Source: Hoplostethus atlanticus
Taxonomy: Eukaryota > Chordata > Actinopteri > Trachichthyiformes > Trachichthyidae
Reading direction: 5' to 3'
Assembly: GCA_034670405.1 (NCBI GenBank)
Contig: JAXDDX010000003.1
Span: 9,160,501 to 9,224,500, forward strand
Length of the DNA stretch: 64,000 bases
Below the pieces are notes generated by a model that made no database searches, was not told where the DNA came from, and saw nothing but the letters and a program-made list of their open reading frames with translations. The position numbers were made by a program, and so were the translations under genes. Of this stretch, positions 1,134 through 37,907 are shown piece after piece (position 1 is the stretch's first letter; each line of letters starts with the position of its first letter).

Positions 1134-4100
1134 CTGGGGATAGCACATCCCGACCACACCAAAATACACACAGGTCAAGACGAAAATGTTCACGTGGTCC
1201 ACCACACCAATGTCCGGGAGCAGGCAAGAGTGCAGGAACATTGAGAGAGGGATAAAGGGCAAGGGAGAGAGAAAAAAGGAGGGGGCAAATGAAGGGAAAC
1301 AAAGAGGAAAAGGAGAGAAGGGTAGGGAAAATGGGAACAGAGGAAGAGAGAAAAGTGAAAACATGTCAGGACTGAAAACCAAAAGTGAAAAAGAGAAAAA
1401 GAAAATGAATTTTTTTTTACCCACTAAGGGAGAAAATTGGGGAAAAAAAATAAAAAAATACAGCAACACATTAAAGCAAAAGCACAGCACAAGGGAGGAA
1501 TACAGTATAGACTAGATGGTGACTCTGTGGTGGGTGAGTGGGATATGCTTTAGATTGGAAAATGAAAAAGGAAAAACAAAGAGTGAGGGAGAGATAACGG
1601 TCTGCTGTAAGGTTGTTGGTAGAATTTATAGGGTTGCTGCTGAGCTGTGTGGTTTTGCTAGGGTAGGTAAGCTTTAGTAAAAACCTTCAGTTACAGCTAC
1701 GATCTCAAGCTAAGTTAATCAGTGGTTATCACTGTCAAACAGGCTGTTTCCAACCATGGACAAAGTATCCAGTCAGTAATGAGTACTAAACAGTAAACAA
1801 AGCTGGAAGAAACACTGCAGTAGTTCAGAGGAAATCCTTTTATCCTTTGTGGAAAGTGCCTGTCCCAGTTCTACGAGGGCAAACTCAAGCTCATTTAGCA
1901 AGAGCTGTCAAAAACAACTTTGAAGTGAGTAAATTCAGCCAGAAAATCACTTCTGGCACACCACTGTCCAGGAAATATATTTTTTCTCTAGCGTTATTTA
2001 GTTGTCATTCACCTTTCAGTGCTAGAGAGATTAAAATAGGACCTCCTGCTTTGGTCGAGCTTTGAGTTTGGCTTTCACAGTTTTGACAGTTTTCTGTGTT
2101 TAGTATCGGTGTGAGTGGCTTGAGGGAGGGTACCTGGGATGGCAGCTGGCTCTGTGGAGGTCCTGAAGGACAGCATTCCTGGTTGGGACTTGCCCTTCTG
2201 ATTCTCTGCCATCACATAGACACTGTACTCTGTGTCCCACTCCAACCCACTCAGAACCACATACTCACTGCCACTGGGCAGCTGGATCTCTGGCTTCCAT
2301 TCTGAAATGTGTTTCTGAGGTACACACAAACACACACTGGTGTAAGTGAAGGCCTGGGCACTACGGCATTAGACTAGAATTGTTCCCCGTTAAATAACGT
2401 ATTTGGAAACAGCAGTCCTATAACTAGTTAGGAGCCCAATACTCACTGGCTTGTAGCGGACTAGATAATGTAAGATGGGTGAGCCGCCGTCATCCTGCTT
2501 GATCCAGTTGATTTTGAGGGAGTTGCCTTTGGGCTGAAGTATCCCTTCGAGCTTAGGAGGACTGGGCTTCCCTTCAAGCACACAAGGGCAATTATAGGGG
2601 TTACTTAGGTTACTTTAAAGGATGCAGAGAACTAGAAGACAGGTTATTGTATTCGGAGGAGCAGAGGCAATGCTGTGATTCCACCAGTACCTTCAGGACT
2701 ACGGGGGGAAAAAACTGGTTAGAAATCAAAGAAAACAGACCCCTCTCTTTGTTGTTGTCCTTTTAGGATTCCTGCCTCTTTTATCACTTGCCATATAATA
2801 TATATATCACAACCAAATGATGCACAGGGCCTGTATATCTGATGTCTGTGAGTTGCTGAGTGCCATTCAGTTGGGGGGGGGGGGGGGGGTTATTTGGCTC
2901 AAAGATAACAGCAATTTGGCAGAATGTTTGTGCAATATAGTCTCCTTGAACTGGACTATGGTAATGTTTTGACACTTTTAACATATATGATTGATTGCCA
3001 TAGCCTATGTTGCATTAAATAATTTAGATGTACACAATGATTTATTGATGACTGCAGTGTGGGGTGACTCATAATATTGATGACTATTCAGCGTGGAGTG
3101 ACTCGTAAAACAAAACAATAAAAACATCAAATTGAAGGACAACAAACAACACGCAGGAGGTGCATGGCATCATCAGGTGAATCATGTCATTACTTGGCAT
3201 TATTAAATTGCCTGTAATGCATGGAATTCAGGCTAAGGTTAAACATGAAACATGGAAGACATAATGTCTAGGCAAGCAATTGCTCTCAGCATGAATACTA
3301 AAAGAAACTGATTGAAGCTATCGAAAGGATGATTAGTGGAAAATAGACGTATTGCATCCTTGAGGTAACACGTCCTACAAGGTAACATCACACGGGTAGA
3401 TATATTAAACACTTCCTGACCCGTCTTACATCACTAAAAACACAGATGGTTTCCTTTCATGTATCCAGCTGAGGCAAATGTCTACATGACTGGTTAAAAG
3501 GAATGATGCAGACCTGCATTAAATGTTTGCATATAGGCGATGAATGTGTTATTTAGAGATAGCATAGCATTGATGTTAGGATTCTCCAATAGAGTTAGGA
3601 TTCTTCTTTTAAAAATCTGGAACATTGAGTTACCTTCTGCAGAGTGGAGATCATCAGCATCATGCAAGCCAAATAACAGTCACATGAATTGCACACATGT
3701 GATTGGTTGAAAGGAAAGTGGAAGAAGTAACATGAAAGATATAATAGACAACAAAACACAGAGAGGGAAAACAAAGTTAAAAGACTTGCAGACAAACAAA
3801 AACAGAAAGACATGGAATCACAAAAAAAGCTCTAGACACTAGTAAACACAACAACAACACAGACAGCTTTCCTCTGTAGAGGGTCAGTAGGCAGCAAGTG
3901 TAGTGGACATCTAACAGTTTTATCTTCTTGACTAAGACTTGATGATGGAAGGCAATTGATTAATCAATACTGATGGACGTAGTCCAAACATAAACCTTCC
4001 CATGTGACATGAAAATAGCTGAAAGGTAAATGTAGCATTTGTGGAGATTTGTAGTGAAAATGCTGATGTTATCCCAAATACTTTACATGCTACGAATCAC

Positions 4101-7100
4101 ACTGACAATGAGATGGATATCTAGATATCAGGCCATACCAGGCTATATTGTTTCAACATGAACACATTTGCTATGCTATGGTGTAAAATTAATAATGGTT
4201 CAGCTAAATAGCAGGGGTGATGGGGTTGTCCTATAAGTATATAAATAGCTATTTCAATACTAACTATCTATTATCTTCACTACAGAACAAACCTGTGTCT
4301 TCAGTGAAAAAATGAAATATGCCATCTAGGAACATGAAAGAAAAGATATCAGGCAAAAACATTTCACACTGAGGTGTTTAACAAGGCATATTTCTGGCAA
4401 TATTGGACAAAAAAACAAAGGAAAACACTAAACATCATTTCATGATCACCATAATCCAGGTAATACTGACATACCAAACTACACAAAATTTAAAGGCCTC
4501 TATGTGGTCACTGCGTTTGTCAAACATCGTCTCTTTCCGAAAAAACTCAGTAAGAGAGTTTAAGTGCGTAGGTGCTAAAAAACATTTTCAAACAATTTAT
4601 CTTTTAGTTCAAAGTTTTAGCTTCTGAAATGTCTCTCCGACTCTGACATTTTTTCTTCAATCGTCTTTGAAGTCCTGCTGTCAGACATGTTTAGCCGAGC
4701 ACAGGTAAGAAAGAACCTCCCTCATTCAAAGTGATTTGTCAAAGCAAATGGAGTTTTAATGGAAGCTAGCTCCATCCCTTCAGAAACCAAGAGCACATAG
4801 TGATGACTGAATCTTTATCTTTAAGATTCAAGAGATAATATAAATTATTCCTTGTTTAAATAAATATTGATAAACAATCATTTACACCACCTAATAAATA
4901 AAAAGAAAATATTCTGAAACAGCACTTGATGAAAGTTAGAACAAGAGCTCAGGCAAAGAGAGATGAAGCACTTACTTTTGTAAGAATAGCCTGATGGATA
5001 CAACAGAAAACATAGAGGAAAAAATGGATGAATAAAATTATAAAATGAAAGATATGAGGAGACATCCAGCATATAATCAACTCTCAAGATGGGATCAATT
5101 TGGAGTTGACATGCACATTCTGGGCTAGGCCAGCAGGAGGCAGTCATTTCTCCTCTCAAGACATGCACACACAACCAATAGAGGGGGATAAAAACTACGT
5201 AATGAGGGACAGATTCAATACAAGGTTGGCTTTTACAGAAACAAGGAAAATTACAATTGATCATTCTCTTCTTCATATTAATATGAAATAATGTGGCTGA
5301 TGAAAGGCTCTAAACCAGTGGATCTCAACCGATTGTGCAATGGGGCCCAGATTTGACCTCATTCATGCAGTCATAATCCAACGTGTTACATTGAAAGATA
5401 TTAACCAAGTTATTCTCTATGACAAAACCTAGAAAAATATTCATCGATGCCTTAGATTTCAAGGCCTTCCCAATATGTGACAAAGTGGTGCAATTACATC
5501 AGACAATGTCTGATTTAAAAAAATATTAGGATCATGAAAGTAGTCCACCAGTTTGATTTTTTTTGTCAGTTTTATTCCTAGGTGTCACAGTAAGCCAAAA
5601 AAGATTAGATGAAAATTGGTGAGGGAATGAGGACAGTATCATGGGCTCTGGGAATCTCTGTGTAGCCTACATCTGAGTGAAATGTAAAAAAAAACACCTA
5701 ACAGCTTCAGAACGGTCTCAATGTCCACCTTTGGGTCACAACTCAGCACTTGAAAAACACTCTTGATTTTTCATAAATCAATAATGAAATGGACAAACAT
5801 TTATTGTGTTATTCCAGGACAGAGAAGAGGGGGATTCAGGTAAGTTGGAAAAGACAGCTGAAGAAGGTATGATGAAGGTTTTATGCTGTAAAATTGTGTG
5901 GGCGCGCAGAGATGTGTGTGAATGCAACTTACGGACAGGCTCTGTCTTGAAAGACACAGCAGGGCTGCTTTCACCCTCTCCCTTGCCGTTAATGGCTGAC
6001 ATCCTCACTTCATAGTCGGTCTCAGGTTTCAGGTCTGTGATAGTCACCTCACTCAGGGAACCTGTCACAATATCAGAGGGAGTGCAATCCCTGCTGAAAA
6101 ATCCTTGATACTTTGACAAGCAGCAAACCAAAACTATCCCGTCCCAGAAACATCCATCATTTCATCACAAGTAAACAGTGATCATCTCAATTCTCATTAG
6201 GAATGAGAATATGTCATCTCATTTCAAAGATGTTAAAACAACAGATATGAAACTGTTTAAAGGACTAGTCTAAAGTCTAAAACCAGAAATAACTGACAGC
6301 TGTTTCTCAGCCATTATCCTGCAGTGTCAACCTTAAAAGCCTACTTGCATCACCATCGTGTCTGGATGAAAAATGTTTTTACCTCCACCAGTGAAATTGG
6401 AAGGATGTATATATTCACTGCCTGTTTGTTAGCCATATATTTTTATAAAGATAAGAACGGATTTGGCTAAACTTTGGTGGACAAATAGGCCTTGGCCCGA
6501 GGATCAGTTGATTAGATTTTGGTGGTGATTCGGATCTGGGATTTCATATAGACAAGGAAATGGGTAAACAGCTGAATTTAATTAAAAAAACAAAAAACAT
6601 CTATTTTCAATCTTTCTTTCTCCACTCCCCCATGATTGGCAATTTCAATGTGCAATTTCCCCATTGTTCCCAAGACAACAAAGATATTTTTTGAACACAG
6701 TGTTCGTACCTTCTTGGACCTTGTAGATCCTCTGCACCCAGCTGCCCCTGCCCTGTGCCCTCCACTCAGCCCCATATTTGAAGGACAGGAACACCTCCAG
6801 TGGATTCAGGCTCCTGGAACTGGACACGTGCCGTGCTGGAGAAAGGCTCCACCTCACTGATGGATGGAGCTGATGGGACGTCTAGTTAAGGGAGGAAATG
6901 AAATACTATTACCAATTAAACTGTGAGATTGCAGCACACCACAATTTATCATTTACTTTGTATTCTCATATTGTAAGTAAAAATGGCATGTTTCACTTTT
7001 TGCCTACATATCCTACATATCTTTCCTACTGCACTGTATCTTGTTTATGGAGTTTAGCGCAAGTTCAATCAGGAAGGCTACCTCTCTTTCATTCATAAAT

Positions 7101-10100
7101 TCTGTCAGCTGGAGCCGAACCTGCCCCTCAGTACGAATCATCCAACCACCCTAGCCCACCCAAACACATTCCCTCTCACCTACTCTGGGAACCAATCACA
7201 AACCGGTACAGACTACTTTTACTCCCTCAGCTGTTTCGTGCTTTGCTGTCATTTCAGTTCTGCTGCTCCGCTGCATCAGACCGACACACCACCACCTCCC
7301 CCCGCCACCACCAGCATCTTGGCTCCATCAGATATTCAGCCGGGGGGTGTAGCTGTCTCCTGCCTGCCCCTGGATACCTCTTGGAGTCTACGCCAAACCT
7401 CTACCTCTGCACATTTCCCATGTCATTGTCTCAATAATGACATAATCCTAGCCTCTCATTATTGAAATATTGTTAGACCATACAAATTTAATTAACTGTT
7501 TCTTTTTCAGAAAAATGAGGTGAGTGAGCGAAAACAATAAAAAATAGGGGTGGGGGGGCAGACGGATGTGCATCAACAATTTTTGTGGTTTTTTTAATAA
7601 AAAGTGAGGGTATTCGTTAAACAGTGTTGAATAAATTATTTTATTTGAAGAAGAGTCTTCGATTATGCTTCGATTATGAAGATTATGCTATGGGGCAAGT
7701 GGGTGTTAGGATGCAACGGAGCTTCGCAAGTCGGACGCCAATAGGGATGATATCTGAGGTATGTAGGGTCACAAAAGGGGCAAAGCTGAAAGGATGGGGG
7801 TTCATTGCAAGTACACGAGGTGGATGCCGTACGCAATACAGGGCGACCTGCAATCATCAGGGTTATACGCATGTTCACGCGATCAGCATTGGTTAGGAAA
7901 TGTTTACAAAAATCAACTTTCATTGAGATAATGTCCACATGAAAAACGAAAGATTGGTATAAAAACCAGGTATGGAGTAGTGTGCGATGTATGCTGAATC
8001 ATTTCCATCTATCCCCAACAACTTAGATTCCATCCTCTGCCACACATAGCATCCTCTGCCACACATAGCTGCCTCCAAAAGTGCATTGAGAAACCTCTAC
8101 AGAAACTTAATTTTTAATCTGTATGAAATCTATGATTTGTGACACTAGCATTGTTTCTCTTGCAATGAATACTTCATACTCTGACGTCATTTCAGAAAAT
8201 AAATGAACACACCAAAATGCTGCTATGGCTGGCCGCCTGATCCCAGTAAAAGCTAGTAATTGCACACCCTCCAAATGCAAACCACGGCAAATAGTGAGCA
8301 GCCATGCTGGGCCTTTCTGACAACAACAGCTTTGAAATGATGGAATACCAATGCAGACAAAAACTTGTTTGAGATTTTCTAAACACTTTTGACTGGTATT
8401 TCAGTCAGTGGGAGCTGAGAAATAACTGCAAACAAATATTAAAATTCAAATTGAGGATGTAAATGTCCTGAAATGGTAAACAGCTGGCATTTGAGGAAGG
8501 AGATGGGCAATCATGATGAGATGAGAAGAAAACAACACACCTCATATCACCACTAAACCTGCAAATAGTGATCAAGCAAAGAAATCAGGGTCTATCTAAA
8601 TGCATAGCAAGACTGCATAATGGATTGCGGGATCATGATGACTGACCAGCCTGAATGAGGAGGAACTCCTTGGACTCGGTACCCATTTCATTGGAGGCGG
8701 TGCAGTTATAGCTCCCAAAGTCATTTTCAGACTCAGGAGTTACCTGGAAGAAACCAAAGCAGCAAATTTATGAAGGGCAGTGTACCAAAACAGATGGATA
8801 GACCTCTGTGTCAAACACTGTGAAGGTGACCTTTATCTTTTTGTTTGTCCATTAGAGTATCCTATTTTTATTCGTTGCCCTGAGCTTTCCTTCTTCTGAA
8901 TTATTTATCTGATTTCTTTCCCACAATGGAGTTGAAAGAAAAACCTTCACTTCAAGTCTATGCTCATGAAATCTTAATGACACCATGATGCATACATTTA
9001 TATGTGTATTTGTGTGTGTATGTTTGCGTGCGTGCATGTGTAACATGTATCTTTATTAATCTGAGTATGACTGCACCTCCAGGTAGCTGGCTGAGGGACT
9101 TTTGAAAATCTTAATGTTGGTGGTGTTTGGGTTGGGCAGCTGCAGTCCATCTCTCAGCCACACAATAGACACTTCACTAGGATGAGCCTGGACATCACAG
9201 CTGATATTAACAGCATTCCCCTCCCAGGTGTACACTGCCACTGTGCCTTGGATCTTAGGGGCATCTGGAAAACAAACAAACAAACAAACAAAAACAAAAA
9301 ATAACAACAGAGGCCTTTTGTCATAAACTATTAAATTGTTTTAATAGTTCAATGCTTTGTAAATTTAAAGACTACAAGGTTTGTATGATCAAGCAATGAC
9401 CATTTGGTTCAATTAGAAGGTGAATGACAGGCAATGGCGTTTGTAAAGTGCAACTGCTTATTCAGTTCAACCGAACAATATTAGAGGAGGAAATTCTTAC
9501 AGCGGACTTCCAGATAGGCGGGCTGAGCATCCTCTCCGATGGCACTGCGTGCTGTGCAGAGGTACTGGCCAGCATCTGTATACTTGACATACTTCAGGGT
9601 GAGGGAGGACACACGAGCATCACTCCTCACCACTACGTTCCCATCCAGACTCTACATGGGAGCAGAGAATCCATGGGTTTCATTTTTAATAATCGTATCT
9701 ACAAGAATATCATGGTAATCCCTTATAACACAATTATATGGGACCATATTGTACGCTTACATATACAATGTAGAATTCTGCTGACAAGATCAAACAACAA
9801 TACAAAGTGTCTTAATGTTAACTAACAGAGTATGACCTAAAAGAAAACCACTTTAGAAAGCCTGCACTTGATGAGAGACATTCCATTAAGAAGCATAAAC
9901 TCCATGGTGTAAAGACTTAGAGACATATGGACACAGTTGACAGCACAAGGGAGTCTATTAATAATTGACGAGAGAAATGCAGGAGAAACCACCGAGAGCT
10001 TTTCACACTACGGGCTCACCAACTCATGGACTATGCTGATGCATGGTGCTAGACAGCAGAGTATACGCTTACTTGCAATGCTTGCATTTTTACACTGATG

Positions 10101-19100: not shown

Positions 19101-22100
19101 TCACAAACTCTAATGAAAGGAATGATAAGATAATTCCTTGGGGTTTTCAAGAAATACTGATTCAAGCGCAGCTGGGAAAATTCAATGAAAAGGATTATTT
19201 GATTCCATCAGGGTTTTGTCAAATTTGGGCGCATACATTGCAACACTGGTCTAGTACATTTCTGTGCCACGCTGATTTCATACCTGATAGATCCTGTTTA
19301 GATGTGCCTGTAAGGGAGAAAATGTAGTGCATGTAATGGACTGTCTCCGGCACTCCTATAGTGTATCTCTCTTAAGCATTTCTCATTACCTGTTAGTTGG
19401 ACCAAGAAACTACCACTGAGACCACTGAGAGCTGGGCTATAGGGGCAATTTGATGGTTTGCACGTGGAATACTGTAGCAGACATTACCAGGGAAACATAC
19501 TGTCAAGGATGGAAGGGCAGATAAAGAGCTAACCCAGTACCTCTCAACCATTGTGGTGCCAAATCAAAATTTAAGAAAAAATCGAAGGCACAGCATATTA
19601 GTGACTGAAAATACCACACGAAGCCTTGATCATAGTGTTGTAGCAAACACAATAAGGGACTGGACTTTGAAAACCTATTATTAATGTAGATGATTAAGTC
19701 TGATTATTGTCTCAAAGTGCATGTTTATTGGGTGAATGTTATAATTTTGTTTTGGATGTTGATTGTCTTAACATTTAGGAAAACTCACTCCCCAGCACTA
19801 GTTGAGAACCACTGAGCTAAGTGCATACGAGATGCAGTAAGCATCTTAAGAGCTGCTAATATGGGGAAATAATCAGCAGCACATGAACCTTGTTGAGGGC
19901 GTTTCACAATGAATTGGCAAAGGTCCCTACCTGATCATGGACAATATACCTCTTTGAGTGTATTTATACTTTAGGTATTTAGCTGACACTGTCATCCACA
20001 GAGCCTTAGCCTTTCTGCATATATTTTACCTGCTCTCCCTCAGTGAAGACATGTACACCATAGCTCCAGTTGATGGTGGGGGTGGGATCTCCCGACGCCT
20101 CACAAGTCAGAGTTACCTGCTCCTCCATCTCTGATGTGCTTTGGTTTACCATGTAGGTGATCTTAGGCTTCACTGTAAAACACAAACACAAAGTCATCAC
20201 AAACCACAGCAGCGTAACAAGGCAGACAGGCGTTTTGGTAGTCTGTAAGTACATCAGAATTCTGTGGATTTGGGATGTTCAAAGGGAGGATGAGGATCAC
20301 TAGCTTGACAGGTGAGGTAGATTTTTTAGTGGCAAAACTGTTTTCAAGGCTTCCCAGCCTCACAGCAGTGGAAAAGTTATGATAACAATGTGTGGATCCA
20401 ACCTTGATTCATCTACTCATTTATTTTGCTTATCTCAAAGGAACCTGTCTTCATTTTGTTTACATTTGAGCAAACTGCCAAGGTACACCTGAGCTGAGCT
20501 GCAGGCACACCAGGGTGCCACAGCTACGGCGTGCGAGCAGAGCAAAGCAAAGCAAAGCAAAGCAAAATGAAATGCTACTCCCCGAGCATGAGGCTGTGCA
20601 TGCACTCCGTTGGCTCTCATTGTCCTCATTCTTGTTTGTTGAAGGTCCAGTAAACATAAAGAGAATAATTTGCCAAACATATACAGTCTACTGGCAGAAT
20701 TATGCACGGATGAGGCAATGTATTGCTCAATTTTACAATATTCACCACCACAAGATAAAACAACTGCATCTTTACATTGAAACACTGTTCTTCGACCAAT
20801 AATTATTATGTCATGAAGGAACAGTGATCTTTCTCAGTAATGCCATGCTTCACATTCATATAGCTACTACTGGGAGCTGCCCAATACAACTGCAGTCTTC
20901 TATTGTTGGCCACTGAAGCAATTAGGGGTTAAATACCTTGCTTAAAACCACCTCAACAATAATTGGTGCGGGAGGGGAAAGCGTTACTCATTCATTTTCT
21001 CCACCTAGAGTTTGCTCACCAGTCTGAGGGTTCAAAACAGCAACCGTCCAGACATAAGCCCGCTTCTCTAACCTATAGGCTTCCACCACCACTGTTAGGC
21101 ACTGTCCAGCCACTGTCCAGCCTGACGTGTTGCTGAGAGTTGGGAGGTGTGCACGTTGACTCGTTTGCATCTTACCCATAAACCCCTTCTCTGTGTAGCT
21201 ACGCGGAGACGTTTACGTGTATCTATCTAGAAGCATAACTAACTCGGCCTTCCCTAGTTGCAGGTATCGGCTATAGCTTACACAAAAATAAATATCTCTA
21301 CAAAGGAATATAAAGTTCAACCTACATGGTTCATACAGTTTGATCCCAATGAGCAAAAAAAAAAGTCTTCAATGCACTTAACTTGCCTTCACAAGTCTTT
21401 TTTTTAAAATACAAAATATCTGATGGACATTAATAATAACTGAAAACAACACTGGTGCATACTGGAACTGCAGACACTGCTAAAATAAATGAATAAGGTT
21501 TAGAGCTGGAAAGCGTCCTGAGACTTGGCAGCTGTGGTGCTCCAAGGCTGACCTGGCGGGACAGAAAGGAGGTGCTCTGGCCACAAAGCACAAAAGCTGC
21601 CAAGTCTCAGGACACTTTCTACCTCCAAACCTTATTAATATTTTGTTAACATTTTCTTTTAGCAATTCCAGTATACACCAAAGTGGTGGTGTTTTCAGTT
21701 GTTATTAATGTCAGATATTTTGTATAGAAAAAAGACTTGTGAAGGCCAGTTAAGTGCAAGACTAGAGCATGTTTACAATCAAGACTTTTACAAGATATAC
21801 TTGCCATTGTGTTTCTACAACATTGTAACATGATCTACATTTTCTATCAAAATGTAACACGCAAAGGTTATCCCTACAGTATAGGTTTTATGTGGAAATA
21901 TAAAAATCTGTTGAAACCTGCTTTAAAACATTCACAGATGCCTAGGGCAGTGAGGTAAATATGTTATTCCTGCTCCCCATTTTATGGCAGAAAGGGTCTG
22001 CCTATTTTTATTTTTTTGGCTCACTTCGCCTCACTTTTCTGAAAAAAAAAAACAGTTAATTGAATTTGTATGGCCATAGTGGGCTAAAGACAAAATTGTT

Positions 22101-25100
22101 TTTGAAACACTTCAACTGAGCTCATGCATTCTGGCCAGTACTCCAAATCCAAAGTACCTATCCTTGCATGAAACAATCACAACCCACGATGACATAACAC
22201 TTTGACATAACCATACCAATTGTTCTTCCCCCGCCTACATACTCTCATACCTCCTCCCCACACACACATTTTAAATGTTCACTTCAATTCCGTATCAATT
22301 CTCGCATTTCTACTTACCGAACACTCTCAGACTGAGTTCCTGCTCGGTTTCCCCAGCCTTGTTCTTGGCAATGCAGGTGTATTCTCCTTCATCCAGCTTG
22401 GCAACATCCATTATTGTCATCGCTGAGCCATCCTCATTAAAGCTGTACTTCTCCCCTGTCTCCAGAACCACTCCGTTCCTGCAGAAGGTGAGACAGCAGG
22501 AAGCCACACACACACGTTGAATATTATGATTCCAGTCAGCATATATTAGTCTAAACAGATATCAAGACAGGAGACAAGTCTGTTAAAGCTACTGTAGATG
22601 TGGATTTTTAAGTGACATTTTCCTAACATGAAATAAGCCCACCAGGCACTATGCGGCCTAAAACTATTTAAGTGAAGATGAAGTGTGACACTGCATTACA
22701 CTTTTTAAACTGCACTGCATTTTTGCAGCCCATCCCCAAAGAAAAAAACTATTTCTTGTCAATGACCGTTAGGTCAAAGAAATAATTGCAGCCTTGAAAG
22801 GCAGAGTGAAAGAAAGACAGTAATGAAAGTACAGCATTGGAGTTAAGGAGAGATGAGAGAAAGCTGAAAACCTCAACCTCAACAGTTTCAGAAAAAACAG
22901 ATGTGATTATTACCAAAACTGTCTGTTTCTGCTGTAAGCTTTATGACATTTGGTGTTATTACTCATTTTTTGTTAAGAATTAATTAATGGCAAAATATGG
23001 CATCTTTACAGTGTGTAGCGTAGTAGTGAGGACAATTATAATTCGACTGATCAACGCAGCCTTCCCTCTGTGAATTATTGGTTTTTTCTTTGTTTCAAAC
23101 TAAGAAAACATGTTTGGCCGCCCTTGTGGATCATTGGTTTAAAGAACATACTACAACCCCTGGCAAAAATTATGGAATCAGCACACTTAGAGGATGTTCA
23201 TCCAGCTTTTTTACTTCATAGCAAATAAACAAATCACAGATCTGACACAAAACAATTTTTGTTTAACAGCTGAACATTCTGGCTTGGTGAAACATAGCTC
23301 AAATAAATTAAATGCATTTATTTTAACTAATAGGATATTTTTTTCCAGATCAAGTAGAGGAAAAAATTATGGAATCATCAACAAAAAAAATCACAATTAG
23401 TACTTTGTTGCTCCTCCTCGGGCTTTTATGACGGCCTGAATTCTTCGAGGCATTGACTGCACTAGTGAACAACAATATTCTCCATCAAGCTGGTTCCAAC
23501 TTTCTCGAATAGCGGTTGACAGATCAGCTTTGCAGGATGGAGCCTTGTCATGGACCATTTTTTTTTTTATTTCCACCATAAATTTTCAATTGGATTAAGA
23601 TTCGGACTGTTTGCTGGCCATGTCATTGAGTTGACATGCCTTTCCTGAAGAAAAGCTTTAACACTCTTTGCTCTGTGGCAAGATGCATTGTCATCCTGAA
23701 AAATGACTTCCTCATCACCAAAACTTTTTTCTATCGATGGAATGAGAAAAGTGTCCAAAATTTCAATGTACACCTGTGCATTGCCTGTTGAGGTAATGAT
23801 TGCCATCTCCCCTGGTCCTTTACCTGACATGCAACCCCATATCATAAATGACTGGGGAAATTTGCTTGTTTTCATCAGGCAGTTATCTTTGTATGTTTCA
23901 TTGGAACGGCACCAGACAAAAGTTCCAGCATCATCGCCTTGGCCAATGAAGATTCGTGATTCATCACTGAATATCACTTTCATCCAATCATCCACACTCA
24001 ATGATTTCTTCTCTTTAGCCCAATGCAACCTTGTTTTCTTCTGTTTAGGTGTTAGTGCTGGTTTTTCGTTTGGCTTTTCTAAATCCCATTTCATTCAGCC
24101 GATTGTTACAGTTCTGTCACAAACATTGACTCCTGTTTCTGCCCATTTGTTTTTTCATTTGTTTTGTTGTGCATTTTCTATTTTCAAGGCATATTGCTTT
24201 GAGTTTTCTATCCTGACGCTTTGACGTCTTCCGTGGTCTACCTGTATGTTTTCCTTTTATAACCTTCCCATTTTGTTTATACTTGCACCAAATTTTAGAC
24301 ACAGCTGACTGGGAACAACCAACATCTTTTGCCACACTCCGTGTTGGATTTCCTTCTTGAAGGAGTTTGATAATCCTTTCCATTGTTTCAATTGACAGCT
24401 CTCTTCTTGGAGCCATGTTTCCCTTCAATTAGCCAAGTCCAACAGCTCGTTAAGGTCTGCAAACACTCCCTTTTAACTGCAGACTAATTTGCATGTTCAG
24501 ACTTGTGCTGGTATTTGTTTTAGAAATACAAATTACAAAGTGATTCCATAATTTTCTCCTCAACATTGAGTGATTCCATAATTTTTTCCTCTACTTGATC
24601 TGGAAAAAAGTATGTCAGTAATTAAAATATTTTAATCTAATTTGTTTGAGGTATGTTTCATGAAGCCAGAATGTTCAGCTATTAAACAAAATTAGTTTTG
24701 TGTCAGATCTGTGATTTGTTTATTTGCTATGAAGTAAAAAAGCTGGAAAGCTGGATGAACATCCTTTAAGTGTGCTGATTCCATAATTTTTGCCAGGGGT
24801 TGTATGTAAAGAGGGTTTGAATCCAACCCAGGACCTTTGTCGCATTATCATCCTCATCCTCATCCTTCTCCCAGTCTTTGCTGTCTCTCGACTGTTAACT
24901 GTCCAATAAAGGCAAAAAGCCCAAAAAATAATCATAAAAGAATGTGGCAAGTTAATCTTTTATAAGTAGTGTGCAGAGATGCTTTTATTTGTATTTGTAT
25001 CTATTGAAACAACAAAATTATTTGTATTTGGAATACAAATAGATAGATAGATAGATATAAATACCTCTGTGAGGGCCCATGGTTTAGGGGGTCATTTATT

Positions 25101-28100
25101 GTTTTCATAATGTGGCATGTGAAGCATTGTGACTAAGGGCTATACAAATAAACTTGACTTGATTTAACTAGACTTGATAAAAACAGCCTAACCAGCCACT
25201 TCTTGGTTAGAATGAACTGTTAAATAATTCTTATTTTTTTCTTTTTGTTATCATTGTCATCGCTATTCTTGAGATATTAAATATTAAATTCATGGTTTTA
25301 CGATGACCTATGAATAGTAATGACGTATAAAAACAGATAATTTGCTTTGTAAAGCTGTATTTAACAAAGAACAACCTAGATGTTATGTAAACAAAAACAT
25401 AGGCTTTTATAAACACAACCATAAACAGGACAACTTAAATGCAGAGCAAACTATATAATATAAAACAAAATATTCCTATCCATCTGTGCTGTCCCGCGCA
25501 CAGATAGAACATTTTGCCAGCAAAGTTTTCACTAGGGTTGAAAGGGTCAACTGTACAGTATATGTACTGTGTATTGTGGATTACCAGGTCACCATACGGA
25601 AATCTAACCAATGACACTGCAAATGCTGAGCAGAGGCTTACCGTGTCCAGGTCACCATGGGTTCAGGATAGCCATCAACGGCACAAGTCAACATGGCAGA
25701 CTGCCCAATATCTGCTGTGGCATTCACCTCCAACAGCCATACCCTGATGGTCGGGAGCACTGAGACACAGGAGATATACAAAAAGACAGACAGACAGACA
25801 GACAGAGGGATGGGGAGAGAGAGAGTGTGAAAGAGAGAGAGAACGAAGCAGACAGGAGGAATTTGCATACGTATTTTAGGCACATCTGCTAGGCTCAAAA
25901 GTTGCAGGAAATAGACTTCATTAACAGGGAAAGCCTTTAACACGTGGTTTCTCTGGGCAACCGCGTCGACGCTGAGCTTGGTCGCCTCCAAGGATCTACA
26001 GCTTATTTAAGAGTCGTGGGGCGTCACATGAAAATAAGCAGAACAGAACGAAAATGAAGAAGAAATAGGTGCTAACCATTGATGATGACCTTGATGACCC
26101 GAAGATCAATCTCGCCGCGGGCCATGAGGCGACCCTCACAGGTGTATGCGCCCTCATCTGTCTTCTTTATGCCGCGGATCTGAAGGTGATTGTTGCTCAG
26201 CACCTTAAACCGAACTAAAAGGAAGGAGAAGGCGAACGCGCTATAAGTCGTGTTACATTCTTAAAAAGTTGCCACTTGCCACTCACTATGGTACAGTACT
26301 TAACTTGCTAATGTAAAACACACTGCAACCCAGAATACGATAAATATGGAAAGGAAAACTGATGTCAACCATTGCACAGTCAGTAACACAGTTTTGGATA
26401 TATTAGGTATTTCTAAAAAGTCAGCATTTAAAATACCAATGGCTGTTTTTGTTATTGACATCCATATGCATTTATGCATTTTCAATGGATTGAATTTGGG
26501 CTATGAAATATTTTTCATGTATGGGGATGATATTAAGTGTAAAAAAAAAAAAAAAAACGATAAAAAACTGAAAAACAACATGGATGATATGTTATTCCAA
26601 TAACCCTACGTAGTTAGATTCATATCCGTGACCATGAACAACCCTTCTCCCCGGTGCCACCACCCCCTCAGAAAAGGCAAAATATTGCCATAGCCCAGAA
26701 AACTCCAATAGTTCATGATGAAAAATCATGTCGTGGTTCAAAGTACTATTACAGCCCACACACGAGTTGTGTTATTATTTTCCAGTAAGCAATAACCACA
26801 ATACCCTACACATTACAATATTGCTCAGTGTCAAGGGTGTGTGGGGGAGACTTCTATGTTATTTCCAAATTCAAAACCCAATTAATATTCCACTTCAAAG
26901 CACAGGGTAAACTCAGGAGATGAATGCTTACCGAAGCAGAGCATGAACTCTCTAAGTCTTTCAAATAGAGGGATTTGGTCTTTTCCTTTTCTTTTGAATG
27001 TTTGCCCCAAATCACAACACCGGTCAAATACCATGCATGTGCATTAACATTTTGTCTCAACTTGCCTTCTACTGTCTAGTCTTCATAATGGAGGAGCCAT
27101 AGAATTAACAAACATTTAGCAAAAATATTATCACGTTCAATAGTTGACTACTATTTCCAAAACATTTCTCCATTTTACATGTTAAAGTATTGTTACAGGT
27201 CTTGAGCCCAGTTGTTGAAATTAGTGGGCTATCTGAAATCTTGCATATCCATGTTATTCCCACTATTTATTTGTTATTCTCTCCAAAATATGTACTCTAA
27301 CTAGTTCTACATGCCAGAACTAGTTCAACTGTTCAGCTACTTAAGGAGATGTGCAGTATTAAAGCGTTTGATAGTTTTTATGTAAGTAATTTAACTTTTA
27401 TTTCTAATTAATTCCACTTACACACCACGGACACACTGTTCAGAGCAGAGCAAAGGAGAGCCACAATACACAGCCCAGATGTGCTTCTCACATACACAGA
27501 CACACAAACACTAGGGGCTCTACTTCCGTGAATCAATGGCGCACGGCACAAAATGAAGTCAAAGGCTCACAGCACACAGGGCATGGCGATAATTTTGTGT
27601 AATTTCGTGGCTAGAGGTGTGTGTCAAACCTGTGGTGCAGTTGGAAATGGAGTTGGAGGAACACATTATCAGTAGGTGTGGTGGGCCTGGCTTCCATCGT
27701 GACCAATCAAATCACCTCTTTTCCTTCCATTTAAAAGCTCTCCACCATGGTGCTCTGACAATTTTGTGATGGAAGAAAACAGTAGTGAAAACAACTCGAG
27801 CGGATATACGAGCTAGTTACCCAATCAGTAAGGCTTTTATGAAGAAAAAACGTTAATGGAGATATTGAAATTCCTTTCACCGGCATTCCCCGTGCGTCAT
27901 GGTGCATACTGACAGTTGCATGTTAGATGACGATCATTCACACCCCAGTCACATGTGTATATAGTTAGACTGAAAAATGTTAGATCTTACTTTTTCCTGA
28001 TTGAGGGATTTCAATTGGCCAACATATCCAACATATCCCCAAAGAGTTGGTAATCTTTTGAATAGCGCGCAATGCTTGGCAAAGCCATGGAAATAGCATA

Positions 28101-28485: not shown

Positions 28486-31220
28486 CATACACAATATCTC
28501 ACTATAATACCCTAGAAACCACTAGCAATCACCTAGCAACCACCTGGTAACACCCTAACAACCACTTAGTAACTACCTAGTAGCACCCTAGTAACCAAAT
28601 AGTAACAACCTAGCAACCACATAGTGACCACTAGTAACAACCTAGCAACTACTGAGTAATGACCTAGCAACAACTTTGAAATCACTAGGAACAACCCAGG
28701 AGCGACTTGTATCCACCTATCAACCACCAGCACAATGTAGCAACCACTGAGTAACCACTTAGCAACTAGCTAGTAACAACCTAGCAACCATTAGTAACAA
28801 CCTTTATTGATAATCAAGTGGTTATTTTGCTAAGAAACATATTGCTTAAGAAATACTTCCAGCTGCTTTCAGCTAGGCCACACATTTTCTTCAGGAAATT
28901 CACTTTTTCTAGTTGCTTGTTATCTTCAATATTACGTATTTGTTCTATTCTTATCTTTATCTTTATTCCTGCTGGTGCTCCGAACCCAATTACCTCATGA
29001 GGATCAATAAAGTTGCATCTAATCTAAACTAAAAGTGAATTTCACTGACATTTCAATGCATAAAATCTTACAAACTGCCTCTGTAAGCAAACCCACTATC
29101 ACTGAAACTGTATATTAACCCACTCATACCCATCAGTTATCATTTGTCAAAAAACTACTGAGATGGAAAAAAAGAACCTGACAGCTCAGAAGGCCGTAAT
29201 AAGAATGGCTGAGTGAAAACAGATGACAAGGGCTGACACAATAGCAGATGAAAACGAAAAAAACAGTGATCCCCGTGCTGACTAGTGATATCTTACCATC
29301 TTTCTCCATCTGGATTCTTGAGCCTTTGTGTTTCCAGATGACAGTGGGAGGAGGCAAACTGATGACATCGCAGACAATGTTGGCACTGTCTCCTTCATTG
29401 AACTCTTGGGGTGACGGGGCATTTGTGAAGGTGATTTTTTCTAGAATATAACATGCAAAGCAAGTTTACTCAGTGGTCTAATGATTCTCATTAAAACTCA
29501 ATTAAGCAACAATTAACTCAATTTAGTACAACTGTTGGGCATCAATATTATTTTATGTCAATATTGGTTTAGGTTACAGATACAACAGATGTGGAAAATT
29601 AACATTGTGATATTGGCTAGCCTTTTTTTTTTTTTTTTTACTTTTTCACACATGTAACAGGATGTCTTCAGAAAATGTCAAAAACAGGTTGGTACAAAAG
29701 ATCGACATATTCACACACTATCACAAATCAGTTATGATTAAAATCACAAACAAAAAAATAATGTGTGTTCAGATCCTTTATTTTATACCCAAGCTAGCAG
29801 GGAATTTGGAGGATGGAATATTTGCACAATGTTTTACATACATGCGCATCAGCTGCCACACAAAGGCCATTCTGTTTTATTTGGTGTAACCTACCACACT
29901 GTTCTTTATCTGCTACCACATTCTGAATAACCTGTTTTGGAGAGTCCATCAAAAAGCTGTTTTTTCACCAGTGCAAAAAAATTGAAGTTTTATTCTCTAG
30001 TCTATGTTATGTAGCCTCTATTTTATCATCATTTAAAATAATATTATTAATATTCAAATTGCATTTTTAAAACTCAAAGTCCAACATTTACAGAATCAAA
30101 ATAAAACACTTCTCCTGATAAACAGCAAAACCAGCCATGAACAGTTATATGCAATCATTTTTCATATAGAAAATCTACGTGGGTGACCATTTCTTCTGAT
30201 AATAACCAACTTTCAGCTACAATAGGCGCTGACAAAGCACAAGAAAGTTTTGTTTGAAAAATCTGAAGATTTCATCTCTGATGGACATTTGCTGATACTT
30301 GGCAAACATGAGGAAAAAAAGCCATTACTCAGAAGAAATTCACAATACACAGGATCATTAAGCAGCCCTCTAATGGTCTTCCGAGGGTTTATTGAACTAA
30401 TAAAAAATCCATACTCACTTGAAAAGAAAAAGAATGATGCGTTGCCCTTGAGCAGTCAATAAAATACAACCATGTCTTCAATACACACGACATTTTTCCT
30501 GTTCTTCTTTTTGGATCTCAACGTTCTTAAAATGGTCTGTGCTCATACCACTCTCTAATTTGAAGTAAGACATGTATAGCGTGAGGAAAATACTTACGGT
30601 AGATTTTAACGTTGACTGTTGACTCTGCTTGCTGGTCTCCATTGGTCGCTACACACTTATATGTCCCTGCATTGTCAATCCCAGCTTTATAGAGTGTGAG
30701 CGTGGAGGATGACTCATCGTTACGGGTTACCGTGATGTCTGGTCTGTTTGGTTCTATCCTGTCCCCACTTGGTGCAAACCAGTCTATTTGCTTGGCAACA
30801 CCGATAACTGAGTACATAGTAAAAAGGAGTGCATGTAAAATTAATGATACATTTTCTTACTGCATTGATTGCTTATATAAACATCACTAAAACCATACCA
30901 CCTTGAATCAGGCAGCATTTTCCTGAAGATATGAGAGGAGTACTTACTCCACTTCAGTGATTGTCAAAAAAGTTGATTATATATATAAAAAATACATGTA
31001 TATATTATAGCATATAGGTAATAACAACAGAATAGGCCTTCATCTACCAATTGTTTCTTCTCTGTCTAAATTATTGCTGTAGCTTTACTAAAATGTTAAA
31101 ATGGTTTTGGGACAGGCAAAGTCAGGATAGTGTTGATAAGCTTACCGTCACACAGGAAGAATTTGGATTCTCCGACACTGATCTCACCGTGGCCAGGTTG
31201 GATCTGCACTTCCAGTGAAA
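1057..31220 (-). CDS. ncam1: Neural cell adhesion molecule 1, exons 1-15, GPI-anchored form (partial)
   Basis: This is a cell-surface adhesion glycoprotein of neurons and muscle that binds itself and other ligands in axon growth and synapse formation. Fifteen minus-strand exons join in one phase-consistent order: 31146-31220, 30598-30807, 29297-29440, 26077-26214, 25642-25759, 22318-22478, 20030-20172, 9501-9651, 9077-9264, 8647-8743, 6710-6881, 5933-6061, 2447-2571, 2134-2314 and 1057-1133. They encode five Ig domains, two fibronectin III domains and a GPI-anchor tail, about 700 residues after the missing signal-peptide exon. NCAM1 rather than NCAM2 is supported by WKHKG in Ig2, the [14 protein letters not shown] block in Ig4, and a VASE exon. 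The total length is a whole number of codons only if one base is removed from exon 11. The signal exon and the transmembrane exons (16-19) are not seen. The teleost paralogue (a or b) is not resolved. Confidence 0.93.
1134..2133 (-). other. ncam1 intron 14, with long pyrimidine tract upstream of the GPI exon
   Basis: The intron is 1 kb. From about 1225 to 1475 the plus strand is almost pure purine (GA and A runs), so the transcript carries about 250 nt of pyrimidine-rich RNA ending roughly 90 nt before the GPI exon acceptor. The plus-strand ORF through this tract is low-complexity and not a gene. The rest shows nothing recognisable. Confidence 0.6.
2134..2314 (-). CDS. ncam1: ncam1 exon 14, second half of fibronectin III-2
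   Basis: The exon reads [20 protein letters not shown], then [20 protein letters not shown], and ends TSTEPAAIP. The AENQKGKS loop corresponds to the AENQQGKS loop of mammalian NCAM. Acceptor ACCTCAG and donor CCAG|GTACCC. Length is 181 nt, ending in phase 1. From here a transcript can go to exon 15 (GPI form) or to the transmembrane exon beyond the window. Confidence 0.95.
2447..2571 (-). CDS. ncam1: ncam1 exon 13, first half of fibronectin III-2
   Basis: The exon reads [20 protein letters not shown], then [20 protein letters not shown] and KP. The PKLEG and [10 protein letters not shown] blocks are diagnostic of NCAM FnIII-2. The acceptor was placed at TTGAAG|GGAAGCCC because only this cut joins the phase of exon 12. 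Length is 125 nt and the donor is CCA|GTGAGT. Confidence 0.93.
2873..2889 (+). repeat. Poly(G) run
   Basis: Seventeen consecutive G bases on the plus strand within intron 12. Length in an assembly is unreliable for such a run. Confidence 0.95.
5316..5760. mobile_element. Probable non-autonomous hAT-like repeat
   Basis: The left end CAGTGGATCTCAACC and the right end CACTTGAAAAACACT resemble the CAGTGGTTCTCAACC terminal repeats of hAT MITEs. A clean 8-bp target duplication was not seen, so the borders are approximate. Confidence 0.4.
5933..6061 (-). CDS. ncam1: ncam1 exon 12, second half of fibronectin III-1
   Basis: The exon reads [20 protein letters not shown], then [20 protein letters not shown], and ends EPV. 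It has the FnIII signature [10 protein letters not shown] and the NGKGEGES loop typical of NCAM. Length is 129 nt, acceptor GTGACAG, donor C|GTAAGT. In mammals the muscle-specific exons lie between this exon and exon 13. Confidence 0.95.
6062..6709 (-). other. ncam1 intron 11
   Basis: The 648-bp intron is mostly occupied by one copy of an interspersed repeat (about 6376-6560). Nothing else is recognised. Confidence 0.5.
6376..6560 (+). repeat. Interspersed repeat family A, copy 1
   Basis: Contains TTACCTCCACC, then ACGGATTTGGCTAAACTTTG, then GGCCTTGGCCCGAGGATCAG and GGTGATTCGGATCTGGGATT. The same blocks in the same order occur at 41375-41535 (reverse) and 57083-57245. This layout is familiar from a dispersed vertebrate repeat with a CCTCCGCCAAGGAGG head, whose class I do not assign. 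Confidence 0.6.
6710..6881 (-). CDS. ncam1: ncam1 exon 11, first half of fibronectin III-1, with apparent +1 frameshift
   Basis: The first part reads [20 protein letters not shown], then [14 protein letters not shown], clearly the start of the first FnIII domain. The second part, in the next frame, reads [20 protein letters not shown] then VQE, also clearly NCAM1. Length is 172 nt where the neighbouring phases need 171. The extra base lies near 6778-6783 (plus strand TTGAAGGAC where TTGAGGAC would keep frame). Without correction the reading meets a stop (TGA) a few codons later. Acceptor AACTAG and donor G|GTACGA are intact. A one-base assembly or sequencing error is the simplest explanation; a real null allele is possible. 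Confidence 0.92.
6882..8646 (-). other. ncam1 intron 10
   Basis: The 1.8-kb intron includes a C-rich stretch on the plus strand (about 7120-7400) that I cannot assign. A 20-base unit (CATCCTCTGCCACACATAGC) is repeated in tandem at about 8030-8070. Open frames at 7624-7938 exist on both strands, show no family I recognise, and look fortuitous or like old repeat DNA. Confidence 0.4.
8647..8743 (-). CDS. ncam1: ncam1 exon 10, second half of Ig5
   Basis: The exon encodes [20 protein letters not shown], then [12 protein letters not shown]. It includes the second Ig5 cysteine and the sequon NCT, which corresponds to the other polysialylation site of NCAM. Length is 97 nt, acceptor CTTCCAG, donor G|GTCAGT. 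The last base G joins AC of exon 11 to give the aspartate of ADVPS. Confidence 0.95.
9077..9264 (-). CDS. ncam1: ncam1 exon 9, first half of Ig5
   Basis: The exon reads [20 protein letters not shown] (first codon shared with exon 8), then [20 protein letters not shown], and ends SASYLE. It carries sequons NIS and NTT. The NTT position corresponds to one of the two Ig5 asparagines that carry polysialic acid in vertebrate NCAM. Length is 188 nt. The donor is GAG|GTGCAG, a weaker +3/+4 context than its neighbours. Confidence 0.95.
9501..9651 (-). CDS. ncam1: ncam1 exon 8, second half of Ig4
   Basis: The exon encodes [20 protein letters not shown], then [20 protein letters not shown], and ends AYLEVR. 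It supplies the second Ig4 cysteine. The RVSSLTLK block is nearly invariant in NCAM1. It starts on a codon boundary after acceptor CATGTAG and ends with one extra base (T|GTAAGA). Length is 151 nt. The long plus-strand ORF over this region is an antisense shadow. Confidence 0.95.
12918..13376. mobile_element. Non-autonomous Tc1/mariner MITE
   Basis: The left end TACAGTGGCATCCAAAAGTC is mirrored by the right end GGATTTTTGGACTCCACTGTA. Both are bounded by TA, the Tc1/mariner target. The interior is AT-rich with no transposase. It ends 314 bp downstream (in transcript sense) of VASE. Confidence 0.75.
13691..13720 (-). CDS. ncam1: ncam1 VASE exon (alternatively spliced 10-residue insert of Ig4)
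   Basis: Thirty nucleotides in intron 7 read [10 protein letters not shown]. This matches the known vertebrate NCAM VASE (pi) insert, which is close to ASWTRPEKQE in mammals. It is flanked by acceptor CTACAG and donor GTATAG. It begins and ends on codon boundaries, matching the phase-0 end of exon 7 and phase-0 start of exon 8. In mammals, inclusion in Ig4 rises with neural maturation and reduces the growth-promoting effect of NCAM. The exon is far too short for ORF calling. Actual use in this species is inferred. Confidence 0.93.
13905..14040 (+). mobile_element. LINE (L2/CR1-type) 3' fragment
   Basis: The plus strand reads WNALPRTIC followed, after frame breaks, by residues like FKTCFTDCL. 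This is the decayed tail of an L2/CR1-type reverse transcriptase ORF (family pattern WNxLP...FK..LK..L). Short and degenerate. Confidence 0.4.
15435..15716 (-). CDS. Unrecognised small ORF with signal peptide, inside ncam1 intron 7
   Basis: Starting at the ATG ending at 15714 (context GCGGCGATG, a good Kozak site), the 93-residue frame has a textbook signal peptide: MFQAVRF, then [15 protein letters not shown], then a possible cleavage after SG. The mature part has cysteines at about residues 29, 38, 41, 68 and 90, and an N-glycosylation sequon (NNT) at 70-72. A longer frame starts at 15773. I do not recognise the family. It could be a first exon of a nested gene (a GTCAGT donor lies inside the EPG codons), a retrocopy, or chance. 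Splicing into VASE or exon 8 is unlikely because that donor is phase 1. Confidence 0.3.
   Translation of the reverse strand: MFQAVRFPVLIGLQLLLSSVVVSGQLLFCNHVEHNVFCWVCPSRGSPGSPSGLPVYDDRGFTMLFKACLNNTHSPSHSITVYVSEPGQFCSKI
19535..19814. mobile_element. Non-autonomous hAT MITE (280 bp)
   Basis: Terminal inverted repeats CAGTACCTCTCAACC and GTTGAGAACCACTG are flanked by 8-bp near-duplications AGCTAACC (19527-19534) and AGCTAAGT (19815-19822). The size and 8-bp duplication fit hAT. It lies 215 bp downstream of exon 7 in transcript sense. Confidence 0.75.
20030..20172 (-). CDS. ncam1: ncam1 exon 7, first half of Ig4
   Basis: The exon encodes [20 protein letters not shown], then [20 protein letters not shown], and ends VFTEGEQ. 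It carries an N-glycosylation sequon (NQS), the first Ig4 cysteine and the tryptophan. It ends on a complete codon (CAG|GTAAAA), so the 30-nt VASE exon can be included or skipped before exon 8 without changing frame. Length is 143 nt. Confidence 0.95.
20540..20566 (+). repeat. (GCAAA)n microsatellite
   Basis: About five copies of GCAAA on the plus strand. Confidence 0.85.
21364..21765. repeat. Large fold-back palindrome (about 400 bp)
   Basis: The left arm runs from CAATGCACTTAACTTGCC through CAAAATATCTGATGGACATT to GTCCTGAGACTTGGCAGCT. The right arm contains AGCTGCCAAGTCTCAGGAC, then AATGTCAGATATTTTG, then GGCCAGTTAAGTGCAAG, the reverse complement in mirrored order. Arms are roughly 170 bp with a loop of about 60 bp. 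No ORF is present. It resembles a hairpin-type MITE. In the ncam1 transcript it would form a long double-stranded hairpin. Confidence 0.85.
22318..22478 (-). CDS. ncam1: ncam1 exon 6, second half of Ig3
   Basis: The exon reads [18 protein letters not shown], then [20 protein letters not shown], and ends LSLRVF. It completes Ig3 with its second cysteine. The IAKNKAGE motif is typical of NCAM family Ig3. Length is 161 nt, acceptor CTTCTGCAG, donor G|GTAAGT. Pairing with exon 7 gives RVF-V-KPKITY. Confidence 0.95.
23154..24802 (-). mobile_element. Tc1-like transposon, near full length, inactive
   Basis: The ends CAACCCCTGGCAAAAATTAT and its mirror are flanked by TA (23152-23153 and 24803-24804). 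Terminal repeats of about 225 bp contain an internal direct copy of the motif AAAAATTATGGAATCA near each inner end, the IR/DR layout of fish Tc1 elements. The 1,649-bp length is normal for an autonomous Tc1. The transposase gene inside is broken. Confidence 0.93.
23397..24428 (-). pseudogene. Tc1 transposase (DD34E), frameshifted
   Basis: Three minus-strand frames together cover a Tc1 transposase. The first (24117-24428) has a helix-turn-helix with [20 protein letters not shown] and a GRPRKTSKR motif. The second (23567-24094) has the catalytic residues: D in FSDESR, D in QDDNASCH, then E in NPIENLW with exactly 34 residues between the second D and E. The third (23397-23579) is the C-terminal end [15 protein letters not shown]. 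The frame breaks once or more near 24095-24130 and again at an A-run near 23555-23570, so no intact enzyme is made. Confidence 0.92.
24803..24940 (+). mobile_element. tRNA-derived SINE, 3' part, split by the Tc1 element
   Basis: GGGTTTGAATCCAACCCAGG resembles a polymerase III B box in its usual SINE setting. It is followed by ACCTTTGTCGCATTATCATC and the tail CAATAAAGGCAAAAAGCCC, familiar from a widespread teleost SINE. The probable A-box half (around TTGGTTTAAAGAACATA) lies left of the Tc1 at about 23120-23153, so the Tc1 jumped between the two boxes. Confidence 0.65.
25038..25056 (+). repeat. (GATA)n microsatellite
   Basis: About five AGAT units, immediately before the LINE tail. Confidence 0.85.
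25060..25175 (+). mobile_element. L2-type LINE 3' end with ACTTG tail
   Basis: GTGAAGCATTGTGACTAAGG, then GCTATACAAATAAACTTGAC and TTGATTTAACTAGACTTGA form the 3' end of an L2-type LINE. It ends in short ACTTG repeats instead of poly(A). The same tail closes the insertion at 51221-51865. Confidence 0.65.
25642..25759 (-). CDS. ncam1: ncam1 exon 5, first half of Ig3
   Basis: After [20 protein letters not shown], the exon gives [20 protein letters not shown]. This is the first cysteine and tryptophan of Ig3 with an N-glycosylation sequon (NAT). The stretch RVWLLEV is more hydrophobic than the polar sequence usual at this place in NCAM1. The 118-nt exon ends in phase 2 (CG|GTAAGC), matching exon 6, which begins with one base completing the arginine codon. 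Confidence 0.93.
26077..26214 (-). CDS. ncam1: ncam1 exon 4, second half of Ig2
   Basis: The exon encodes [16 protein letters not shown], then [20 protein letters not shown], and ends VIKVIIN. It completes Ig2 with the second cysteine. CEGR...ARGEI is almost invariant in NCAM1 and NCAM2. Length is 138 nt. The acceptor is CCTTTTAG. The donor G|GTTAGC departs from GTAAG at the third position but remains a GT donor. Confidence 0.95.
28431..28481 (+). repeat. (GA)n microsatellite
   Basis: About 25 perfect GA units. Confidence 0.97.
28510..28810 (+). repeat. Degenerate minisatellite, unit like CCTAGCAACCACNTAGTAACA
   Basis: About 300 bp of diverged tandem copies of a 10-20 base unit built from CTAGCAACCAC and TAGTAACAAC. 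Spacing is irregular and copies differ, so it is an old minisatellite and not a CRISPR-like array. Confidence 0.85.
28965..29030 (+). mobile_element. Possible LINE 3' tail
   Basis: CCGAACCCAATTACCTCATG followed by AGGATCAATAAAGTTGCATC resembles the GGATCAATAAAGT tail common at the ends of fish LINE copies. Only the tail remains. Confidence 0.4.
29297..29440 (-). CDS. ncam1: ncam1 exon 3, first half of Ig2
   Basis: The exon reads [17 protein letters not shown], then [20 protein letters not shown]. It gives the first cysteine and core tryptophan of Ig2. The basic KHKG...KD stretch corresponds to the heparin-binding region known in NCAM1, although here it is less basic (SRIQMEKD). WKHKG separates NCAM1 from NCAM2. 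The 144-nt exon has acceptor ATATTCTAG and donor G|GTAAGA. Confidence 0.95.
30598..30807 (-). CDS. ncam1: ncam1 exon 2, second half of Ig1
   Basis: This exon contains the Ig1 tryptophan ([15 protein letters not shown]), the [19 protein letters not shown] strand, and the second cysteine in [10 protein letters not shown], ending at STVNVKIY. In the family, Ig1 pairs with Ig2 of a partner molecule in homophilic cis contacts. The 210-nt exon fits the phase of both neighbours. The acceptor is TGTACTCAG and the donor is C|GTAAGT. Confidence 0.95.
31146..31220 (-). CDS. ncam1: ncam1 exon 1, first half of Ig1
   Basis: This exon encodes the start of mature [24 protein letters not shown] followed by FLCD, with the first Ig1 cysteine. 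The pattern [12 protein letters not shown] is characteristic of NCAM1/2 N-termini. The acceptor TATTTTCAG and the donor G|GTAAGC are good. Length is 75 nt with a 2-nt left overhang and a 1-nt right overhang, so an upstream exon must supply the first base of a codon. That upstream exon, carrying the start codon and signal peptide, was not found in the window. Confidence 0.93.
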
Positions 31221-37445: not shown

Positions 37446-37907
37446 TTACTTGGAAGAAGTGAACTTCTTGTTAACGATGAAGCCGGCCTTTGAGAATATT
37501 CGCTCCGATGGTGTAGACGTGGAGGGGATGCAAAGTACACGTTTGGCTGCTGTGGACAGCTTTGGATAGCGGTCGTCGTTTCTTCTCCACCAGTTCAGTG
37601 GCCCCGCATCATCTTTTGTTTGATCCTGCAGGTCTTCATTTCGTTCTGAATCAGTGACAGTCCCTCTTCTTCTTGACCAGTCTACATCAGCAGCAGCATG
37701 GCTATCTCCTTCTCCTTGTCATTGTTTTTCTTTTTTGGAGGAGGCTCAGTTTCGGTGCTGCTGTCCTCGCGTTCCATTTGCGCTGGGCCTTGCGCAATGT
37801 TTTGATACAGACTCTCGGCCAGATCTGCCACCGTTTCATATACCAGTGCATGTTTGTCACATGGATTTTTTTTTTTTAAATAGAATATAAAAATATAGAT
37901 TCCCCTT
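37446..37907 (-). pseudogene. hAT transposase C-terminal remnant with hATC dimerisation domain
   Basis: The minus-strand end reads PLNWWRRNDDRYPKLSTAAK, then RVLCIPSTSTPSERIFSKAG and FIVNKK, followed by a stop. LNWW, CIP(S)TS and SERIFS are the signature of the hAT C-terminal dimerisation region. Upstream, LVYETVADLAESLYQNIAQG is in another frame, so at least one frameshift exists. The remnant is cut at 37907 by the LTR insertion, and the catalytic and zinc-finger regions are absent. Confidence 0.88.

Follow-up and report, generated by a model that had tools for sequence, protein, structure and literature searches.

A single surplus base breaks the reading frame of one ncam1 exon in the genome assembly of the teleost Hoplostethus atlanticus (633 Mb in 1161 contigs), and it is very probably a one-base insertion left over in the consensus, the ncam1 paralogue itself being functional. 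The exon, Fn1a, lies in the 64 000-nt stretch of DNA analysed here (the window; C3:9160501-9224500). The deciding evidence is that similar lesions recur elsewhere in the assembly; we also favour an error because the length modulo 3 equals that in a second ncam1 copy for 13 of the 14 exons, and because segments downstream of the break stay conserved and open. The animal's own exon would presumably be 171 nt long, the base being absent from its DNA, and the gene product would be an ordinary transmembrane adhesion protein with five Ig and two FnIII domains. From the error pattern and the contig sizes we infer noisy long reads as the source of the error. An earlier note on this DNA had likewise favoured an assembly or sequencing indel, and we come to the same view from a paralogue that keeps the expected frame, a gene otherwise without decay, and like lesions in other genes.

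The minus-strand gene in the window matches human NCAM1 exon by exon, and NCAM1 entries in PDB confirm the two pieces that flank the break. Its 14 coding exons inside the window run from 31220 down to 2134 and encode Ig1-Ig5 and both FnIII domains (Table 1). The protein ahead of the break holds five I-set stretches (Pfam, E 1.4e-81), hence five Ig domains ahead of FnIII as in the NCAM1 family, and the protein after it holds two fn3 stretches (Pfam), the first FnIII domain starting in the broken exon. Transmembrane and cytoplasmic segments lie downstream of the break and just beyond the window, at -293 to -475 and -791 to -916, where they are open and conserved (tblastn identity 65% and 76%). 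The exon set as identified consists of the 14 in-window exons and these two outside segments, without the signal-peptide exon. With five Ig domains, two FnIII domains and a transmembrane and cytoplasmic region all found, the gene is, by its sequence matches, an NCAM1 family member. Fourteen clean exons had been claimed for it; the window holds 14 identified exons altogether, of which 13 are clean and one is broken.

Table 1. Coding exons of the window ncam1 copy and features of the break (positions in the window)
Feature	Position	Strand	State or basis
Exon Ig1a	31146..31220	-	intact
Exon Ig1b	30598..30807	-	intact
Exon Ig2a	29297..29440	-	intact
Exon Ig2b	26077..26214	-	intact
Exon Ig3a	25642..25759	-	intact
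Exon Ig3b	22318..22478	-	intact
Exon Ig4a	20030..20172	-	intact
Exon Ig4b	9501..9651	-	intact
Exon Ig5a	9077..9264	-	intact; weak donor, paralogue likewise
Exon Ig5b	8647..8743	-	intact
Exon Fn1a (first half of FnIII-1)	6710..6881	-	172 nt; splice sites intact; one base surplus
Frame switch	6778..6783	-	one surplus base in hexamer; alignment with paralogue
Premature TGA, frame as assembled	6766..6768	-	translation of exon
Exon Fn1b (second half of FnIII-1)	5933..6061	-	129 nt; open in frame given by 171-nt Fn1a
Exon Fn2a (FnIII-2)	2447..2571	-	intact
Exon Fn2b (FnIII-2)	2134..2314	-	intact

Some other features of the window were noted. The donor of exon Ig5a at 9077 is weak (GTGCAG), as is the donor at that place in the second ncam1 copy (GTGTGC), a weakness common to both. 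The intron between Ig3a and Ig3b carries, spread over more than one frame, pieces of a Tc1/mariner-like transposase (23400-24428, minus strand; DDE_3 and a weak HTH of Sleeping Beauty type), and a C-terminal dimerisation piece of a hAT transposase lies at 37449-37718 on the same strand (PF05699, E 7e-16). Open frames at 51615-52148 (minus strand) resemble a second Tc1-like element by eye; the piece of them that was scanned, 51615-51971, had no Pfam match.

Exon Fn1a spans 172 nt on the minus strand, and its splice sites, the AG acceptor TAACTAG and the GT donor GTACGA, are intact, as had been claimed. It translates into 33 residues in a first frame, up to GGVPV, and 23 in the next frame, from KYGAEW. 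Joined, the two pieces match residues 7-62 of NCAM1 in PDB 2vkw (E 3.5e-20), and the second piece together with the following exon matches NCAM1 by itself (PDB 2vkx, E 1.9e-17). Read as assembled, the exon instead continues with VLQIWG and meets a TGA at 6768-6766, five codons past the lesion. The break site is not in a long homopolymer, a point that speaks against an error. The earlier note had held that 171 nt were needed, that the frame switches in the hexamer given in Table 1, and that the original frame soon meets a stop. The length agrees with the two-frame reading and with the matching exon of the second copy, which lines up with a one-base gap; translation and that same alignment place the switch where the note had it, and the stop is the TGA.

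The second ncam1 copy, on contig C15 (3288024-3339834), has 14 matching exons, all open. Exon lengths modulo 3 are equal between the copies in 13 of the 14 cases, Fn1a being the sole exception, which bears out the claim that the other exons are phase-consistent. The paralogue's Fn1a is 168 nt long and aligns with the one-base gap at the break and one codon missing. Both sides of the break in the window copy translate without stops, with exon borders preserved, and no further disabling lesion was found in the other 13 window exons or in the transmembrane and cytoplasmic matches. Divergence between the copies is dN 0.18 and dS 2.08 before the break and dN 0.22 and dS 2.20 after it (NG86; dS saturated). 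These values suggest that constraint has been alike on either side of the break, with no hint of a long-standing loss, although a very recent loss would be invisible to this test. A DNA search for another haplotype of this locus, in which the best candidates were scored, gave exon Fn1a and its counterpart on C15.

For comparable breaks elsewhere in the assembly we turned to three long-exon gene families: Kv channels, aminergic-type receptors and protocadherins. Kv channels gave 74 matching rows covering 49.7 kb. The best 12 Kv loci (Kv1-like) each aligned in a single frame, and a Kv-type exon on C119, which we take to be KCNG-like, has two frame changes within about 0.7 kb, its conserved stretches still being readable. 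Rows with in-frame stops on C35, C181, C1 and C94 were left aside as they may be read-through introns. A further Kv-type channel (L046, C592:13000-13800, on a 33.8 kb contig) passes through frames 1, 2, 3 and 2 in about 0.6 kb, at least three changes. Its frame steps run in both directions, the last not being +1, as would be seen in an unpolished contig, and it was kept apart from the counts below.

Aminergic-type receptors gave 138 rows, of which a pairing rule, excluding unpaired rows, made 54 genes assessable: five with a single row, 45 with two rows in one open frame and four with two rows in two frames. One of these four, on C18, proved to contain an intron when its sequence was read, which leaves 53 assessable genes; an intron is likewise present in a C155 gene that the pairing rule did not cover. 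Breaks stand in three of the 53: one on C36, one on C54 and one on C2, a contig of 18 Mb. Most of the Kv and receptor genes assessed are intact, so an error at any single gene is a minority outcome.

Protocadherins gave 113 rows, and 39 of the 66 on C150 lie in open frames shorter than 780 aa. Five exons were fetched, four picked for short open frames and one (L052, on C150) for intactness. All except L052, four in total, carry insertion-type breaks: there are four frame changes in L049 and five in L050 (both C150), and one each in L051 (C150) and L053 (C62). Compared with their intact neighbour L052, L049 and L050 show 96-99% protein identity in some stretches and 68-94% in others, and about 85% and 86% identity over their whole DNA. 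A two-base gap at 2505 in the L050 alignment falls after the coding match has ended and is left out of these numbers. L049 and L050 (C150:304800-311390) have an identical one-base insertion at alignment position 1571, which may be either a true lesion passed on by gene conversion or a consensus mistake carried over from one near-identical stretch to the other. Some of the short protocadherin open frames may belong to true pseudogenes, and some of the breaks counted may not be errors; since such clusters contain true pseudogenes and polish poorly, the protocadherin counts were kept out of the rate given below.

Outside C592 and ncam1 we counted 16 frame changes: two on C119, one each on C36, C54, C2 and C62 and in L051, four in L049 and five in L050. 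When L049 and L050 are aligned as DNA with the intact neighbour, all nine of their changes prove to be insertions (eight of a single base, one of two bases), with one site common to both exons. The other seven step +1 modulo 3, which one inserted base would explain most simply, the alternative being the loss of two bases. Altogether 15 of the 16 step +1, and the remaining one is the two-base insertion. Provided that all 16 are insertions, equal odds of insertion and deletion would produce them with a probability of 1.5e-5 (two of them share one site); for the six changes outside C150, again if all are insertions, the figure is 0.016. Among neutral indels in animals, deletions are the commoner kind. 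That insertions should prevail in unrelated genes that are otherwise conserved suggests the sequencing consensus as their origin, and the ncam1 frame change is of the same type.

A rate was taken from the Kv channels without C592 and the receptors, where five changes in about 116 kb amount to some one per 23 kb; it is rough, since the changes cluster, some Kv rows were left out and the sampled genes are all on contigs other than C3. At this rate the ncam1 coding sequence of about 2.3 kb would be expected to hold 0.10 breaks, a chance of about 10%. True frameshift alleles, per gene and per individual, are far rarer than that.

Readings in which the base is real are unlikely even when taken together. 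The one that survives best is a young frameshift null allele that the sequenced fish carries, either as a segregating variant or as one private to it, with the C15 paralogue covering part of the function; we consider it improbable. The lesion does predict the stop five codons on, transcripts would meet that stop in FnIII-1 and be degraded, and a paralogue open through 14 matching exons exists. In zebrafish, ncam1b deletion mutants are described as having only minor developmental changes, though with delayed hair-cell regeneration, and compensation by ncam1a is proposed (PMC13026480). Against such an allele, the gene is otherwise free of decay signs, frame changes of the insertion type are found repeatedly in this assembly, and the error expectation of about 10% far exceeds the frequency of true alleles of this kind. 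If it were nevertheless real, the locus would be an early snapshot of a duplicated neural adhesion gene being lost while its partner stays intact.

A lesion already fixed, in a paralogue dying throughout the species, is very improbable. The window copy is slightly further from human NCAM1 than the C15 copy, with 318 vs 329 identical residues of 506 before the break and 101 vs 104 of 165 after it. However, the 14 exons hold just one lesion and have preserved their splice sites, and the cytoplasmic segment is conserved. Residues altered in the window copy alone number 53 of 506 before the break and 17 of 165 after it (42 and 14 in the C15 paralogue alone), so that changes are not in excess after the break. 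The earlier note had allowed for a null allele or a dying paralogue should the base be real; with the remaining gene free of decay signs, we found no support for either.

That the base is real and tolerated, through exon skipping, an alternative splice site, translational frameshifting or a truncated secreted Ig1-5 form, is extremely improbable: skipping Fn1a preserves the frame but deletes half of FnIII-1; cryptic sites that keep the frame and are free of stops exist on paper, but the three donors are far weaker than the real one (best 0.1 vs 3.6) and the three acceptors scramble or delete the segment ahead of the break; no slippery motif was recognised by eye at the break; and the paralogue lacks the surplus base while the downstream segments are conserved as coding.

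As a probable consensus insertion, the ncam1 lesion matters little by itself, except as a warning on the assembly: claims of gene loss or frameshift drawn from it need read support first. In vertebrate assemblies built on noisy long reads, the short indels that consensus calling leaves behind are described as the commonest error before polishing and as a cause of frameshifts, with fewer than 3% of genes carrying frame-shift base errors once quality targets are met (PMC8081667). False frameshift indels are also described for earlier, non-VGP assemblies, for example in PCDH17 of the zebra finch (PMC9516821). Going by titles and the openings of abstracts, the papers listed on teleost ncam1 frameshifts and on PCAM/NCAM paralogues contain no report of this lesion.

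The present case is like those accounts (PMC8081667, PMC9516821) in that a short indel in an otherwise intact coding exon leads to a false frameshift or an apparent gene loss. It differs from the zebra finch work, where sites were judged by mapped reads (PMC9516821), in that the judgement here comes from the recurrence and the sign of the changes. Zebrafish has ncam1a and ncam1b (PMC7841142, PMC13026480). Unlike that pair, one exon as assembled here has a surplus base; as in zebrafish, two ncam1 copies stand in one fish genome, here both on the same 14-exon plan.
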